Shown here: positions 24,610-31,724 of the stretch, piece after piece
How the letters are laid out: every line of letters begins with the position of its first letter
Position numbering within the stretch: the first letter of the stretch is position 1
Source of the DNA: Flammeovirgaceae bacterium
Lineage (GTDB): Bacteria; Bacteroidota; Bacteroidia; Cytophagales; Cyclobacteriaceae
NCBI GenBank assembly: GCA_024638265.1
Contig: JAHEKQ010000001.1
Coordinates: 62,001-126,000, forward strand
DNA length: 64,000 bases
Direction of reading: 5' to 3'
Position numbers and translations under genes: made by a program
The notes under the pieces: generated by a model
Databases searched by the model: none
What the model was told of the DNA's origin: nothing
Seen by the model: the letters and a program-made list of their open reading frames with translations, nothing else

Positions 24610-26784
24610 TTAGAGGTTGTTTAGGATATAATCAGTCATTAAGCGATAAATATGCATGGTCGCCCCACCCCTTCTAATCCCATGGGCACGATCCGGATAG
24701 TAAAATGACTGAAATTGTTTACCCTCGGATATCAACTTATTCTGAAGTGCAACGGCGTTCTGAAAGTGGACATTATCATCTCCAGTACCATGGATCAAAA
24801 GGAAATTCCCTTTGAGCTTAGAAGCATGCGCGGTAGGTGAATTGTCATCGTACCCCGACCCGTTTTCCTGTGGCAAACCCATATATCTCTCTGTATAAAT
24901 TGTATCATAATACCTCCAGTTAGTTACCGGGGCAACTGCTATTGCCATTTTAAATACATCAGCACCTTTGAAGAGGCAAAGGGAAGACATATAACCCCCG
25001 TAACTCCAGCCCCAGATTCCTATTCGGTCCGCATTCGTGTATGAAAGGCCCGCGATGTACTTAGCAGCGGCAATCTGATCTTCAGATTCGTATTTTCCCA
25101 GTTGACCATAAGTCAGTTTTTTGAATTCTTCCCCACGATAGCCGGTTCCTCTCGGGTCGACCACCGCAATGATGTATCCTTTCTGGGCCAACATATAATG
25201 CCAGAAATCCCTGCCCCCAACCCAGCGGTTACTGACTTGTTGCGAACCGGGGCCACTGTACTGGAACATAAGTGCGGGATATTCCTTGTTCTCATCAAAA
25301 TCGGTGGGCTTTATCATATAACCGTTTAGTTCCACACCTCCCTCGGTAGAAAACTTGAAAAATTCTTTCCCCTTTAGCTTATAGCTGTCCACCACCTCCT
25401 GGTGTTCTTCGTTGTCTGCAAGGTTTTTTATCAACTGATTTCCCGAAGTGGCATAAAGATCAGTAGTTGGTACCCGGATGGAATTACTGTAGGTCCTTAC
25501 GTAATATTCAAAGTCTTTGCTCATGTTCACAGAAACCGATCCGTTGGAAGGAGAGAGTTCAGTGTGTTTCTTCCCCTTGAGATCCGTGACAAAAAATGTC
25601 CTGTCCAGTGGTGAGGCTTTCGCCGCAATATAGTATACCAGGGGTCGCCGACTTTCCTCATCAATCCCCAGGAACCTGGTCACTTCAAAATCACCGGAAG
25701 TCAGTTGCCTTACCAACTCGCCATCGATTGTATAAAGATAGAGGTGCTTGAAACCACTCTGTTCACTGGAGTGGATAAAATGTTTTCCATCATTTAAGTA
25801 GGTCAGGTCATCACAATAGTCCAGGTCGACATAACGCTCATTGGTCTCGGTAAGAACCACTTTCGAATCGCCTGTGGAAGCATCTACATGCATTATATCC
25901 AGTTTGTTTTGCAACCGGTTTAACCTCCTCAAAGACAAAACGTCAGGATCTGTAGTCCAGTTAGCCCTCGCTATGTAAATGTCTGTTTCTGAACCGATAT
26001 TACATTTAACATTGTCTCCGGACTCGAGGTCATGTATAAGAATTTCAACGATGGAATTGTCTTCACCCGCCTTGGGGTACTTGAATACATAATCTTCAGG
26101 GTAAAGTGCCCCTTCATTCCATTTCTGCATATTATAGGTTTTGACACCTGATTCGTCGAATCGGTAAAAGGCAATCCTTCGACTGTCCGGGGACCAGTAA
26201 AAGGCCTTGGCAAAACTCAGTTCCTCCTCATAAACCCAATCTGTACTACCATTGATGATCTTGTTAAACTCCCCATCCACAGTCACCTGCACTTCCTCCA
26301 TGGTCTCCAGGATGGTATAAAACAGATTATTACCCCGAACAAAGGCCACCTTGGCACCATCCGGGCTAAAAGTGGCATATGATTGCTTACCTCCGCTCGA
26401 TAGTTCTTTCATATCCCCCGATTCGCGATCATAGATATAATAATTGGCTTTGTAGGACCTTCTATAAATGCTTTCAAAATCGGTCAACAATAGTATTTTT
26501 TGCTCATTCGCACTGAATTCATAGGCGTTTATGGAAATCCTTGGGGTCAGCTCTGAACCGGAAAGGATCGTCTCAACCACTTCACCGCTCCTCACACTAT
26601 ACTTTACAATATTATTCTGTTCCTGGGCGGTAAAATAATTACCATCGTTCATCCAACGAAGGTTACTGACGAACTCGGTCCTGAAGGTTCCTTTCTGGAA
26701 TATATCTTCCAATGTGATCTCCTTTTGACCAAAGCCTGCTACGGTAATAAAGAGCCCAATTATCAATAGTATGTTCTTTCTCAT
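24610..26784 (-). CDS. Dipeptidyl-peptidase IV family serine peptidase (S9B)
   Basis: A 724-residue exported peptidase. It has a signal peptide, a beta-propeller (about 50-480) with DWVYEEEL, the Glu motif that binds the substrate N-terminus in DPP IV, and an alpha/beta-hydrolase domain. The catalytic Ser594 is in GWSYGGYMS, with Asp669 or Asp670 in GDDNVH and His701 in DRAHGI. It cleaves dipeptides ending in Pro or Ala from peptide N-termini. It overlaps the class-V PLP gene by one base. Confidence 0.92.
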   Translation of the reverse strand: MRKNILLIIGLFITVAGFGQKEITLEDIFQKGTFRTEFVSNLRWMNDGNYFTAQEQNNIVKYSVRSGEVVETILSGSELTPRISINAYEFSANEQKILLLTDFESIYRRSYKANYYIYDRESGDMKELSSGGKQSYATFSPDGAKVAFVRGNNLFYTILETMEEVQVTVDGEFNKIINGSTDWVYEEELSFAKAFYWSPDSRRIAFYRFDESGVKTYNMQKWNEGALYPEDYVFKYPKAGEDNSIVEILIHDLESGDNVKCNIGSETDIYIARANWTTDPDVLSLRRLNRLQNKLDIMHVDASTGDSKVVLTETNERYVDLDYCDDLTYLNDGKHFIHSSEQSGFKHLYLYTIDGELVRQLTSGDFEVTRFLGIDEESRRPLVYYIAAKASPLDRTFFVTDLKGKKHTELSPSNGSVSVNMSKDFEYYVRTYSNSIRVPTTDLYATSGNQLIKNLADNEEHQEVVDSYKLKGKEFFKFSTEGGVELNGYMIKPTDFDENKEYPALMFQYSGPGSQQVSNRWVGGRDFWHYMLAQKGYIIAVVDPRGTGYRGEEFKKLTYGQLGKYESEDQIAAAKYIAGLSYTNADRIGIWGWSYGGYMSSLCLFKGADVFKMAIAVAPVTNWRYYDTIYTERYMGLPQENGSGYDDNSPTAHASKLKGNFLLIHGTGDDNVHFQNAVALQNKLISEGKQFQSFYYPDRAHGIRRGGATMHIYRLMTDYILNNL

Positions 26785-28025
26785 TATGCTTGTTTTACTG
26801 CCTCTACAAATTTATCCAAATCACTAAATGTCGTGTAAAGATGTGGCGTTACCCTTACTCCCTTTACGCTATCCCTGTTTATTGCTACCGTAAATATATT
26901 ATGCTTCTCATGGAAATATTCAGAAAGCTCGTTCGGAGAGTATCCCTCAATTGAAATATTACCCAGGGCGGAAGATCGATCTACATCCAGGGGCATGTTC
27001 AGCGTGACTTTAGGTAGGTCTTTCACCTGGTCCGTCCAATATTTTCGCAATTGCCGCAGTCGGTCCTGCTTTCTTTTCGAGCCGATGGTATTGTGGAATC
27101 GCAGTGCATTGGAAATAGCAAGATTGGTATGAACAGGGTGTGTACCTATGTGCTCAAACTTCCTGATGTCATCCTCTCCATAGGTATCATCTCCGAAAAG
27201 TGGCCAGACTCTCGATATCTTTTCTTTTTTCACCCACAGTATTCCTGCCCCAAGTGGAGTGCAAAGCCATTTATGAAGACTCGCTCCGTAATAATCACAC
27301 CCGAGTTCCGGTATTTCAAAATCCAATTGTGCAAAAGCATGGGCGGAATCACAAATGACCTCAACGCCGTATCGGTGCGCCATATCTGAGATCTTCCTTA
27401 CCGGAAGAACCTGGCCTGTTAAGTTAATAAGGTGGGTAACCAGAATGACTCGGGTTTTCTTCGTAATCGCTTTCTCATATGCGTCCACAATTTCATCATC
27501 TGACTTTGGCCAAAGGGGCAGACTGATCATCCTATTCACTATCCCTTCCCGTTTGGCTTTCTGACGAAAAGCCTCCACCATACTCAGGTAATCCTGATCA
27601 GTCATTACCGCCTCTTCGCCCTTCTCCATTTTCAACCCAAGTATAACCGTATCCAATGATTCGGTGGTATTTCTCGTAACCGCGATCTCGTCAGGAGAAA
27701 CCCCGGCAAATTCTGCCAATTGCTGTTTCACCCTGGTTTTTTCCTCCCGTTGCATTCTCCTCATAAACCATGAGGGCATTTCATTGATCATTCTCTGATA
27801 CTCTGCATGTGCCTTCAGGGTCTCCGTAGGCTGAGGGCTGAAATACCCGTTTTCAAGATTGATAAATTTCGGGGTCTGGTAATAAGCTTTCTGAACCTGG
27901 TACCAAAATGCCTCAGGATCTCCCTGGTCGGCTTGCCTTACTGCTGCGATCAAACTGTCATTGAAAAAGGGAAAGGCCCCTATTGTGAGGCCAATCTTTC
28001 CGAGGAATTTTCTTCTTGAGTCCAT
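26784..28025 (-). CDS. Class-V PLP enzyme with a twin-arginine signal
   Basis: A 413-residue PLP enzyme of the isopenicillin-N-epimerase/cysteine-desulfurase superfamily, from ATG 28025, one base after the upstream peptidase stop. An in-frame start at 28082 would overlap that gene. The N-terminus MDSRRKFLGKIGLTIGAF carries SRRKFLGK, a good Tat motif, so it is exported folded with its cofactor. PLP contacts are Asp226 (CDSAHAF) and Lys252 (ASLHKW). The substrate is unknown. It sits between two exported S9 peptidases in one operon, so an amino acid or peptide released by them is a natural guess. Confidence 0.85.
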   Translation of the reverse strand: MDSRRKFLGKIGLTIGAFPFFNDSLIAAVRQADQGDPEAFWYQVQKAYYQTPKFINLENGYFSPQPTETLKAHAEYQRMINEMPSWFMRRMQREEKTRVKQQLAEFAGVSPDEIAVTRNTTESLDTVILGLKMEKGEEAVMTDQDYLSMVEAFRQKAKREGIVNRMISLPLWPKSDDEIVDAYEKAITKKTRVILVTHLINLTGQVLPVRKISDMAHRYGVEVICDSAHAFAQLDFEIPELGCDYYGASLHKWLCTPLGAGILWVKKEKISRVWPLFGDDTYGEDDIRKFEHIGTHPVHTNLAISNALRFHNTIGSKRKQDRLRQLRKYWTDQVKDLPKVTLNMPLDVDRSSALGNISIEGYSPNELSEYFHEKHNIFTVAINRDSVKGVRVTPHLYTTFSDLDKFVEAVKQA

Positions 28026-28026
28026 C

Positions 28027-30486
28027 TTACTCCCTTTCAATTTCGATTTTCTCCGAGGGAACCTTCTCCCGGTTTTTGACATAATTTTCCAACCATTGGT
28101 CCATTTCCCAAAGCATATGCATCACTGATTCTTTTGCTGCGTAGCCATGACTTTCGAAAGGAAGTCTTACTAATCTAACTGTTCCCCCATGACCTTTGAC
28201 AGCATTGAACAGCCTGTCGCTTTGCATCGGAAAAGTTCCCGAGTTGTTATCATGGGTTCCATGCACGAGTAACAGCGGTTCATCGATCTTGTGTGCGTGC
28301 ATAAAGGGGGACATCTTAAAATATATGTCAGGGGCTTCCCAGAATGTACGTTCCTCGTTTTGGAATCCAAATGGTGTGAGGGTCCTGTTATAGGCGCCGC
28401 TCCTTGCAATTCCGGCTGCGAAAAGATCTGAATGTGCCAATAGGTTGGCAGTCATAAATGCCCCATAGCTGTGGCCTCCAACACCGACCCTGGTGGGATC
28501 TGCAATACCCATCCTGTCGAGCTCATCGATTGCGGCGGCAGCATTTGCCACCAGTTGTTCAACAAAAGTATCATTTGGACGGCTGTCACCTTCACCGATT
28601 ATGGGAAAGTCTGTCCGGTCGAGAACCGCATAACCCCTCATAGCCCAGAATATGGGTGACCCATAACTTATCCTGACAAACCTATGAGGTGAATCTTTGA
28701 CCTGGCCTGCAGCTTTTGGATCTTTGAATTCCCTGGGATAGGCCCAAAGGAAAACCGGTAGCCTACCGTCCTCTGCTTTATCATAGCCTGGGGGTAAGTA
28801 AAGTACTGCATTGAGATCCACACCGTCTTCTCTTTTATACCTTATATTCATGCTCACCACATCCTTCATGGCTTCATAGGGATTCTCAAATGAAGTGAGG
28901 GCTTTTGGTTCACCTCCCTTTTTTATGTTTCTCAGGAAATAATTGGGATTTTCAGTCTTAGATTCCCTCCTGGTAAGAATTTCTCCCCTATCTATATCGA
29001 TAATATCAGCGATGGTCTCATAATGCGTCTTCCCATCAGCCCTCCAAAGCCTGTTGGTGGATGCTTTTGAGATGTTGTATTCATCAATGAATGGGCGATT
29101 TCCATCAGGGCTGTAACCTTCTCCAATGAGGTAGAGGTTTTTTCCATTTTTGGAAGTTAAAAGCGTGGAATAACCATTTCTAGTACTCTTCATCGCAAAG
29201 CTTCCCGGTAGTTGGTAGCGGTTTTCGTAGCTATAGGTAATATCGGGGGTCAGTTCCTGGTTAGATTTAGAAGGGTCAAAAACATACATCTGGCTTTGTC
29301 GTGACTGCCACCAGCGGTCCATGACAACGGCCATTTGGTCGTTACCCCAGCGGATTCCAGCATACCGGTCTTTGACCTTTGCCATCAACCTGGCTTCCCC
29401 ATTAAATGGTGCCTTCAATTCAAAGATGGCATCACGGTAGTCGACCTCCTTTGACTGGTCTCCGTCGTCCATGGCGCGCACCCAATAAACAGCTGAGGGT
29501 TGATCTGCCCTCCAGCCAAAGCTTCTGGGTTGAGGGGTAGTCGAGGATCTTCCACGTGGGCGCTCCTCATCAAGAGGTAAGTCAAATAAACTCTTGACAA
29601 GCGATCCTGAAGGACTGTAGACACTTAAGTTAAAGGCAAATCTCGATGCCTGAACCAGGTAAGAATACGGTTTCAGCAAGGTCTCTACCAGGATGTATTT
29701 TCCGTCTGGTGATTGTGAAACCGATGAATATACAGCAGGGGGAAGGAGCTCTGCCATTTCTCCCTCCATATCGATCTTTGTGATCGCTGAGGTGGCAAAA
29801 TAATCAAAGTTCTTCTCATCAGCTTTACTCTTAAGGAGATCCTGGTAAGTTCTGGCGGGTGCTTCTTTCCCCAGGTTCTCGGAGACCACGGGACCTTCGG
29901 GTGCCTGGTTTGATGGAGTTATCGATCCGCGACTTTCAGGAACTACTCTTGCCAGGAATCCTTTAGAGTCCTTGGTCCATTCATAGGGATTGCCCCAGAA
30001 GACATCATTCAGTATCGGCTCCGTTATTTTTGTTGCTGAGGCTGAAGCTACATCCAGTACCCAAAGTTCAATACCGGTTTCTGCATCGTGCGTAAACGCT
30101 ACTTTGGTGAAATCAGGTGACCACCCGATATTACCTAGCCGTGGATTATCCGGAAGTCCCTTTACCTGTAATTCCTCCATGCTACTAAGCTTCTTCACCG
30201 TAATATTCTCGTAATAGCGGGAGCGGCTTCTCCCGTTTGTCCTGGGATTAATCCTTAAACCAGCCAGTCGATATTCCTGATCACTCAATTCCTTGATAGA
30301 TGAAAACAGGGTGCGGTGCAGAAGGACCAAATTTTCTGCGGATTCATCCATTACCACTACCGGGGCCGGGGCTGCTTCCGCCAGTTTCTTAATGGCCGGA
30401 TCAGGTTCCATGTATTTAATATCAATTTGCGCATCGGCCACAAAGACCGGGAATGATAGAATGAATACTGCTAAAATTTTTCTCAT
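28027..30486 (-). CDS. S9D-type prolyl-oligopeptidase-fold peptidase (glutamyl-endopeptidase-like)
   Basis: An 819-residue exported peptidase with a signal peptide (KILAVFILSFPVFVADA), a long propeller (about 100-560) and a C-terminal hydrolase domain. The catalytic residues are Ser673 in GGHSYGAFM, Asp746 in HGTHDNNSG and His780 in ESHGY. The GGHSYGAFMTANLLAH block and VFLWAYPREFKD are those of the S9D group, whose plant chloroplast member is a glutamyl endopeptidase. The N-terminal YMEPDPAIKKLAEA fits too. It precedes the Tat-PLP enzyme by one base. Confidence 0.87.
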   Translation of the reverse strand: MRKILAVFILSFPVFVADAQIDIKYMEPDPAIKKLAEAAPAPVVVMDESAENLVLLHRTLFSSIKELSDQEYRLAGLRINPRTNGRSRSRYYENITVKKLSSMEELQVKGLPDNPRLGNIGWSPDFTKVAFTHDAETGIELWVLDVASASATKITEPILNDVFWGNPYEWTKDSKGFLARVVPESRGSITPSNQAPEGPVVSENLGKEAPARTYQDLLKSKADEKNFDYFATSAITKIDMEGEMAELLPPAVYSSVSQSPDGKYILVETLLKPYSYLVQASRFAFNLSVYSPSGSLVKSLFDLPLDEERPRGRSSTTPQPRSFGWRADQPSAVYWVRAMDDGDQSKEVDYRDAIFELKAPFNGEARLMAKVKDRYAGIRWGNDQMAVVMDRWWQSRQSQMYVFDPSKSNQELTPDITYSYENRYQLPGSFAMKSTRNGYSTLLTSKNGKNLYLIGEGYSPDGNRPFIDEYNISKASTNRLWRADGKTHYETIADIIDIDRGEILTRRESKTENPNYFLRNIKKGGEPKALTSFENPYEAMKDVVSMNIRYKREDGVDLNAVLYLPPGYDKAEDGRLPVFLWAYPREFKDPKAAGQVKDSPHRFVRISYGSPIFWAMRGYAVLDRTDFPIIGEGDSRPNDTFVEQLVANAAAAIDELDRMGIADPTRVGVGGHSYGAFMTANLLAHSDLFAAGIARSGAYNRTLTPFGFQNEERTFWEAPDIYFKMSPFMHAHKIDEPLLLVHGTHDNNSGTFPMQSDRLFNAVKGHGGTVRLVRLPFESHGYAAKESVMHMLWEMDQWLENYVKNREKVPSEKIEIERE

Positions 30487-30533: not shown

Positions 30534-31724
30534 TTATTTGTAAGGGGTATTATTTGAAAGGCACTCTGACAATCCGCTCACCACCTGTTCAATTTCATCT
30601 TCCGTGTTGAAATAATGGACTGATGCCCGGACAACTTCCTGAAGCCCCCTCTTCTCCATATATAACCTGGAGTTGGCAGTAAATGCGTAAGCGACATTAA
30701 TATTGCGATACTGAAGGGCCTCCATTACCTCTGCACATGTTTTACCATTCACAGTCAGGGTCACGATGCCCGATTGTACACGGCCACTGTCATGGACCGT
30801 TATTCCGGGGACTGCTCTTAGCTTATCCCGGAAATCAGCTGCCAATTCCTGTACCCTCTGCCAGGTCTTCTCAATTCCCAGGTCATTCTGGTATTTTATT
30901 GCCCTGGCTAAACCCGCTTTCGCTGCGTAATTTTTTTCATAAGTCTCAAACCTGATAGCATTCTTTCGCATCCGGTAATTCTCCAGGTCCATCCATTGTC
31001 CCGAGAATAAATCGATCGAAATAGGATCCAGCTCTTCGATCAGGTTTTTATCTACATATAATAGACCGGTTCCCCGTGGGCCCCTGAGGTATTTTCTCCC
31101 GGTACCGGAAAGTATATGGCAACCGATTTTTTTGACATCGAGAGGACAATGCCCCACTGACTGACAAGCATCTACCATGTAAATGATCCCGTATTTATCC
31201 GCTACCTTACCAACTTCCTCCACCGGATTCACAACACCTCCCATGGTAGGCATATGGGTAATGGCAATCAACCGTGTTCTGTCTGTGATCAACTCCTCGA
31301 GGTGATTGAGGTCCACTTCATCATATTCGTTGTCGCGTGCTACGAGGATCTTAATATCGAACCATTTCCTCAACCTCAGAAAGGAAATATAATTACTCGC
31401 ATATTCGGTATTAGCGGTAATGATCTCATCTCCATCCTGCCAATTTATGCCGAAGAAAGCCCGCTGCCAGGAAGTGGTTGCGCTGTCGGTATAGGCAATT
31501 TCATCACTATTTGCATTGAGCAGTCGTGCTGATTCCGTATAGAAAGTATTCAATTCTTCCGATCTTACAGCTACTGTTTCGTATCCACCTTTTTTCCATT
31601 CCTCCTCAGCATAGTTGAGCATGGATATATAAACCGGCTCAGGCATTAAAGAACTCCCCGCGCTATTAAAATGGATCAGTTCCCCAGTGCCGGGGGTATC
31701 CTTTCTTATCTGTTCAATATCCAA
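30534..31724 (-). CDS. Class-V aminotransferase-fold PLP enzyme
   Basis: A 396-residue cytoplasmic PLP enzyme starting at TTG 31724, four bases after the EF-G paralogue stop. Asp185 (VDACQSVGH) binds the pyridine nitrogen and Lys211 (GTGRKYLRGPRGTG) forms the Schiff base. HFNSAGSSLMP near the N-terminus is the usual opening. The catalytic Cys loop of NifS/IscS desulfurases is not visible. The GRKYLRGPRGTG form is shared with lyases acting on sulfur amino acids, but I cannot name a substrate. Close coupling to an EF-G paralogue is unusual. Confidence 0.83.
   Translation of the reverse strand: MDIEQIRKDTPGTGELIHFNSAGSSLMPEPVYISMLNYAEEEWKKGGYETVAVRSEELNTFYTESARLLNANSDEIAYTDSATTSWQRAFFGINWQDGDEIITANTEYASNYISFLRLRKWFDIKILVARDNEYDEVDLNHLEELITDRTRLIAITHMPTMGGVVNPVEEVGKVADKYGIIYMVDACQSVGHCPLDVKKIGCHILSGTGRKYLRGPRGTGLLYVDKNLIEELDPISIDLFSGQWMDLENYRMRKNAIRFETYEKNYAAKAGLARAIKYQNDLGIEKTWQRVQELAADFRDKLRAVPGITVHDSGRVQSGIVTLTVNGKTCAEVMEALQYRNINVAYAFTANSRLYMEKRGLQEVVRASVHYFNTEDEIEQVVSGLSECLSNNTPYK

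Follow-up and report, generated by a model that had tools for sequence, protein, structure and literature searches.

Gene order around the class-V PLP enzyme

The window, a 64,000-nucleotide stretch of a Flammeovirgaceae bacterium genome, carries a gene for a class-V fold-type I PLP enzyme flanked on both sides by genes for exported peptidases. The features referred to below are listed here with their positions in the window.

24610..26784, (-): downstream neighbor, exported DPP IV-type S9 peptidase; its start overlaps the stop of the PLP gene (TAATG)
26784..28025, (-): class-V fold-type I PLP enzyme, 413 aa, with a Tat signal (open reading frame and profile matches)
26853..26855, (-): codon of Arg391, conserved in 116/117 homologs
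27270..27272, (-): codon of Lys252, conserved in 117/117 homologs
27339..27341, (-): codon of His229, His in 106/117 homologs and Gln in 11/117
27348..27350, (-): codon of Asp226, conserved in 117/117 homologs
27942..28025, (-): N-terminal Tat-type signal region, residues 1-28 (MDSRRKFLGKIGLTIGAFPFFNDSLIAA), conserved among homologs; pLDDT <50 for residues 1-23
28011..28016, (-): twin-arginine pair R4-R5 (sequence and alignment of homologs)
28027..30486, (-): upstream neighbor, exported S9 peptidase; a single base separates it from the PLP gene
28030..28037, (-): Shine-Dalgarno-like AAAGGGAG, within the 3'-terminal codons of the upstream gene

The coordinates, strand, and start originally predicted for the PLP gene are correct: the 413-aa frame opens with the ATG at 28025, which lies one base from the TAA of the upstream S9 gene and is preceded by AAAGGGAG in the final codons of that gene, and the encoded N terminus starts MDSRRKFLGKIGLTIGAFPFFNDSLIAAV (residues 1 to 10, MDSRRKFLGK). 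Another in-frame ATG, at 28082, falls inside the upstream S9 gene. Given the 1-base gap on one side and the TAATG overlap on the other, the three genes look translationally coupled. Both flanking genes were assigned to the S9 peptidase family by Pfam, and their N termini appear Sec-like as judged by eye. A second class-V PLP protein is encoded at 30534-31724 (-), one gene further upstream of the S9 peptidase; it carries no export signal and scores 182.3 bits against the SufS profile (cut-off, 475.1).

Catalytic core, predicted fold, and export signal

We compared the window protein with homologs at 119 loci (the window included), drawn from relatives, a phylum sample, and named records. The alignment comprises 117 proteins after removal of two fragments of under 350 residues (L094 and L102), and tests of neighbor rank used the 112 loci that remained once the near-duplicates L015, L050, L051, L144, and L181 were set aside along with the two fragments; loci L105 to L109, which hold other class-V proteins or RidA, were not counted. 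Homologs with E values up to 1e-60 occur in 105 of the 395 genomes of the phylum sample. The source genome has three signal-bearing family members, the window protein and two class-V paralogs that are 45% and 28% identical to it (L003 on contig C82 and L004 on contig C167, respectively). The tree and a motif table separate three subfamilies: subfamily A, which holds the window protein and has E58, Y61, and R89; subfamily B, which differs from it at these conserved positions (N58, G61, and W89); and a divergent subfamily C, with H146 and mostly Q229.

The prediction of an intact PLP enzyme is borne out. The window protein matches Pfam Aminotran_5 (PF00266) with 142.7 bits against a gathering cut-off of 21.5, and the core residues Lys252 and Asp226 are both present at the predicted positions and invariant in the 117 homologs. 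We take Lys252 to be the Schiff-base lysine, Asp226 to bind the PLP pyridine nitrogen, and Arg391 to be the arginine that binds the substrate carboxylate.

A structure predicted from eight sequences has a mean pLDDT of 83.8, with low values in the signal region. Foldseek ranked PvdN first for this model, as did VIA-align (5i90; Z = 41.2, rmsd of 2.4 over 370 residues), where the second match was the cystine C-S lyase C-DES (1n31; Z = 40.0, rmsd of 2.2 over 360 residues); at 41.2 versus 40.0, the lead of PvdN over C-DES in this comparison of a predicted fold is small. A PDB sequence search also placed PvdN first, and the best NCBIfam model was again PvdN (NF051467), which aligned over residues 1-412, signal included. 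PvdN of Pseudomonas (5i90 and 5hh9) shares with the window protein the Tat signal, the class-V fold-type I architecture, the N-terminal extension, and the Lys and Asp residues, but it is only about 22% identical, no pyoverdine genes were seen directly beside the window gene, and the score of 168.7 bits falls far under the equivalog cut-off of 650, by which we rejected the assignment as a true PvdN. Periplasmic transaminase A (PtaA) of Pseudomonas fluorescens is described as another Tat-exported PLP enzyme (PMC6206403). The window enzyme is a putative new variant of the PvdN/PtaA kind and not PvdN itself.

C-DES (1n31 and 1elq) and the SufS cysteine desulfurases have a fold in common with the window protein (Z of about 37 to 40), but their alignments start only after its signal. 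Desulfurases use a cysteine in a C-terminal loop for catalysis, and this residue of the SufS-type enzymes is absent from the window protein, whose only cysteines are at positions 225, 243, and 255. With no cysteine after residue 255 and 126.9 bits against the SufS model TIGR01979 (cut-off, 475.1), a cysteine desulfurase was rejected.

The original prediction also held that the protein carries a Tat-type signal, and it would have been abandoned had that signal been absent in all close homologs. Instead, the N-terminal pair is RR in 86 and KR in 23 of the 117 aligned homologs, and 8 have neither by pattern, of which 4 are RK (L174, L177, L183, and L185); the start of L165 is apparently mis-called, L100 has TRSKF, and neither L083 nor L085 shows the motif. 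By column, position 4 is R in 90/117 and K in 24/117, position 5 is R in 109/117 and K in 4/117, and position 7 is F in 107/117, so that the RR-x-F-L motif near the N terminus of the window protein is conserved across its homologs. The signal exceeds chance and is a trait of the family. In Tat signals, the pair is expected to be followed by some 13 or more residues without charge. A run of at least 13 was found in 106 of the 113 homologs that gave a value (four of the 117 gave none), with a median of 16; the run in the window protein is 12 residues, which puts its predicted signal on the weak side for Tat. TatC and TatA are each encoded once in the source genome.

PLP-enzyme amino acid chemistry is mainly cytoplasmic, and the statement in the original prediction that such enzymes are uncommon outside the cytoplasm is fair, with the qualification that Tat-exported cases are already known in PvdN and PtaA. 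These two Pseudomonas siderophore-tailoring enzymes were the Tat-exported PLP cases in the literature examined, and according to PMC6206403, Tat exports both of them folded and PLP loaded. A periplasmic PLP enzyme thus has a precedent in PvdN, which among solved structures comes closest to the window protein in both sequence and fold. Together with these precedents, the conserved signal makes predicted export of the folded PLP enzyme well supported. In the literature searched, with subscription papers partly covered, no Tat-exported class-V PLP family outside Pseudomonas was described, and the homologs analyzed here apparently constitute a widespread, uncharacterized bacterial family related to PvdN.

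Gene neighborhoods across the family

From the position between the S9D and DPP IV genes, the original prediction suggested a role in processing a released amino acid or peptide, and it called for a search for neighborhood conservation. Across the 112 loci, S9 peptidases make up 4 of 222 neighbors at rank 1, two of them the window's own, versus 7 of 961 at rank ≥3 (P = 0.13; P = 0.68 without the window), which is not an enrichment. Of the relatives found, the closest (G007; 75% identity over residues 191-413) retains the downstream order of lipoprotein-like, two porin-like, undecaprenyl diphosphate synthase-like, and BamA-like genes (named by eye), with no DPP IV gene between the PLP gene and these genes. 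Peptidase adjacency as a family-wide conserved trait was rejected on the basis of this locus together with the lack of S9 enrichment over 112 loci. Within subfamily A, three lineages (the window, L139, and L142) have exported peptidases directly beside the gene, and these account for 5 of 60 neighbors at rank 1 versus 1 at rank ≥3, with P = 0.018 without the window, a value biased by the choice of some query peptidases from those same neighbors. This weak, post hoc excess may reflect a lineage-specific link to peptide breakdown. The predicted peptidase role is weak, despite the tight gene spacing in the window, and it is unsupported for the family.

Synteny of the whole locus is mostly lacking among homologs. 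A downstream cluster (c6 to c9) is common to L063, L064, L065, and L068, and one gene is shared after the class-V genes of L046, L056, L060, L070, and L172; both look like neighborhood inheritance. Tat-signaled proteins that are HisC-type aminotransferase-like by eye are encoded near the class-V gene at L141 (11951-14868), L142 (2551-3723), and L079 (5783-6928), and the L141 region also encodes a Tat-signaled FAD amine oxidase-like protein (by eye), a hint of further exported amino acid enzymes. An LhgO-like (L-2-hydroxyglutarate oxidase) FAD oxidoreductase directly follows the class-V gene at L191, L193, and L196, and the same type follows the class-V and RidA genes at L211. An exported amidohydrolase lies directly beside the class-V gene at L054, L164, and L168, which fall at two distinct places in the tree (Pfam Amidohydro_1 in 2 of 2 tested), and an amidase adjoins it at L049 and L051. 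The LhgO-like, amidohydrolase, and amidase links are rare, and their rank counts are biased upwards because the queries were taken from the neighbors themselves.

An exported RidA is encoded beside or near the homolog in 8 of the 119 loci. Two early loci (L053 and L071) prompted the idea of a link, and 60 further loci fetched after it had been noted supplied 6 of the 8 linked loci, in all six of which the exported RidA directly adjoins the gene on the same strand. By neighbor rank over the 112 loci, RidA makes up 7/222 at rank 1, 1/214 at rank 2, and 0/961 at rank ≥3 (rank 1 versus rank ≥3, Fisher P = 7.6e-6). Pfam Ribonuc_L-PSP was confirmed in 4 of 4 linked RidA proteins tested. The association also appears in reverse: among the best 30 RidA matches in the phylum sample, a class-V gene lies within 1.5 kb in 12 of the 17 with an export-like N terminus versus 0 of the 13 without one, for a RidA query picked because it was linked to a class-V gene. 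In the same sample, at least 15 of the 105 family-bearing genomes have RidA and the class-V gene on one strand and no more than 400 bases apart; 9 of these 15 belong to one family (f42), and L161, L071, and L053 add two further families. RidA-linked rows sit in four places on the tree. Most homologs have no RidA neighbor, no RidA adjoins the window gene, and the link is mostly in another subfamily, with subfamily A holding one of the eight linked rows. The source genome encodes two exported RidA-family proteins elsewhere (L088 1387-1908, whose best Pfam match is YjgF_endoribonc, and L089 1345-1911); by eye, one N terminus is Sec-like and the other lipoprotein-like.

RidA hydrolyzes the imines formed by PLP enzymes and by amino acid oxidases, and clustering of its genes with those of PLP enzymes is known (PMC4433059, Niehaus et al. 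2015). The arginine that the same source describes as needed for imine hydrolysis is kept in 9 of 9 aligned exported RidA-type proteins. The adjacency seen here is of the same pattern as these reported clusters; however, the terms “periplasm,” “signal peptide,” and “class V” are absent from the main text of that paper, whereas here both partners carry export signals. No exported RidA was described in the literature searched, in which subscription papers were partly covered.

Proposed function and competing interpretations

We propose that the window protein is a Tat substrate, a class-V PLP holoenzyme that would act on amino-acid-type groups outside the inner membrane, and that the chemistry of its family is imine or enamine release, a reading in which our confidence is evenly balanced. 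The enzyme would be loaded with PLP and folded in the cytoplasm and then leave through Tat as a holoenzyme, as PvdN and PtaA do. Once beyond the inner membrane, it would react with the alpha carbon of a substrate that has a free amino-acid-type group: an amino acid itself, or a small peptide or natural product whose amino and carboxyl groups are exposed. Lys252 and Arg391 would hold this group. Across the family, a reactive imine or enamine would be released by elimination or oxidative deamination. The second-ranked fold match, the cystine C-S lyase C-DES, is in line with this, since enzymes of that type make an enamine. PvdN, for its part, is grouped with the PLP enzymes that show reactivity toward oxygen (PMC7497351). 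The recurrence of an exported RidA imine deaminase as a gene neighbor makes imine or enamine release the best-supported chemistry for the family. For the window enzyme, this chemistry is indirect, an argument from the family only, because no RidA adjoins the gene, the subfamilies differ, and a single linked row falls in subfamily A; we infer that the chemistry may transfer to the subfamily of the window. RidA could alternatively do no more than clear away side products, or it could shield other PLP enzymes that are exported.

Three other interpretations were weighed against this proposal. The enzyme might, like PtaA or PvdN, tailor an exported small molecule or peptide by transaminating or oxidatively decarboxylating its exposed amino acid end. 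Family, sequence, and fold comparisons all place PvdN on top, and PtaA reportedly exists in species that lack pyoverdine (PMC6206403); set against this are the low PvdN profile score and identity given above and the lack of an evident biosynthetic cluster on reading the open frames around the gene, and we regard such tailoring as unlikely. Somewhat more doubtful in our judgment is a peptide-utilization operon, in which the two exported S9 peptidases would free an amino acid or dipeptide that the PLP enzyme deaminates or transaminates in the periplasm. The tight spacing with both peptidases and the exported peptidases that adjoin L139 and L142 in subfamily A speak for it, but the excess in that subfamily carries the query bias already described, the closest relative has no DPP IV gene, and S9 peptidases are not enriched over the 112 loci.

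We consider it improbable that the protein resembles isopenicillin N epimerase in function and produces D-amino acids, or peptides with a D-residue at the end, outside the cytoplasm. The D-(G/S)-A-H and H-K-W motifs, which are known from the isopenicillin N epimerase family, are both present, and a Tat-signaled DAO-type FAD oxidoreductase (Pfam DAO) adjoins L053 and L072; yet this FAD link is confined to 2 of the 119 loci, which are sister rows on the tree, and no epimerase profile or structure is among the NCBIfam, PDB, and fold matches listed.

Returning to imine or enamine release, we tentatively suggest a two-part extracytoplasmic pathway, in which a Tat-exported PLP enzyme would make an imine or enamine and a RidA exported by Sec or as a lipoprotein would hydrolyze it at once; this would be a phylum-wide module with the window enzyme as a subfamily member. 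With homologs in 105 of the 395 genomes sampled from the phylum and three signal-bearing members in the source genome, the family would make exported PLP catalysis routine across the phylum. The RidA link is a clue to the chemistry of the family, and it would place imine detoxification outside the cytoplasm.
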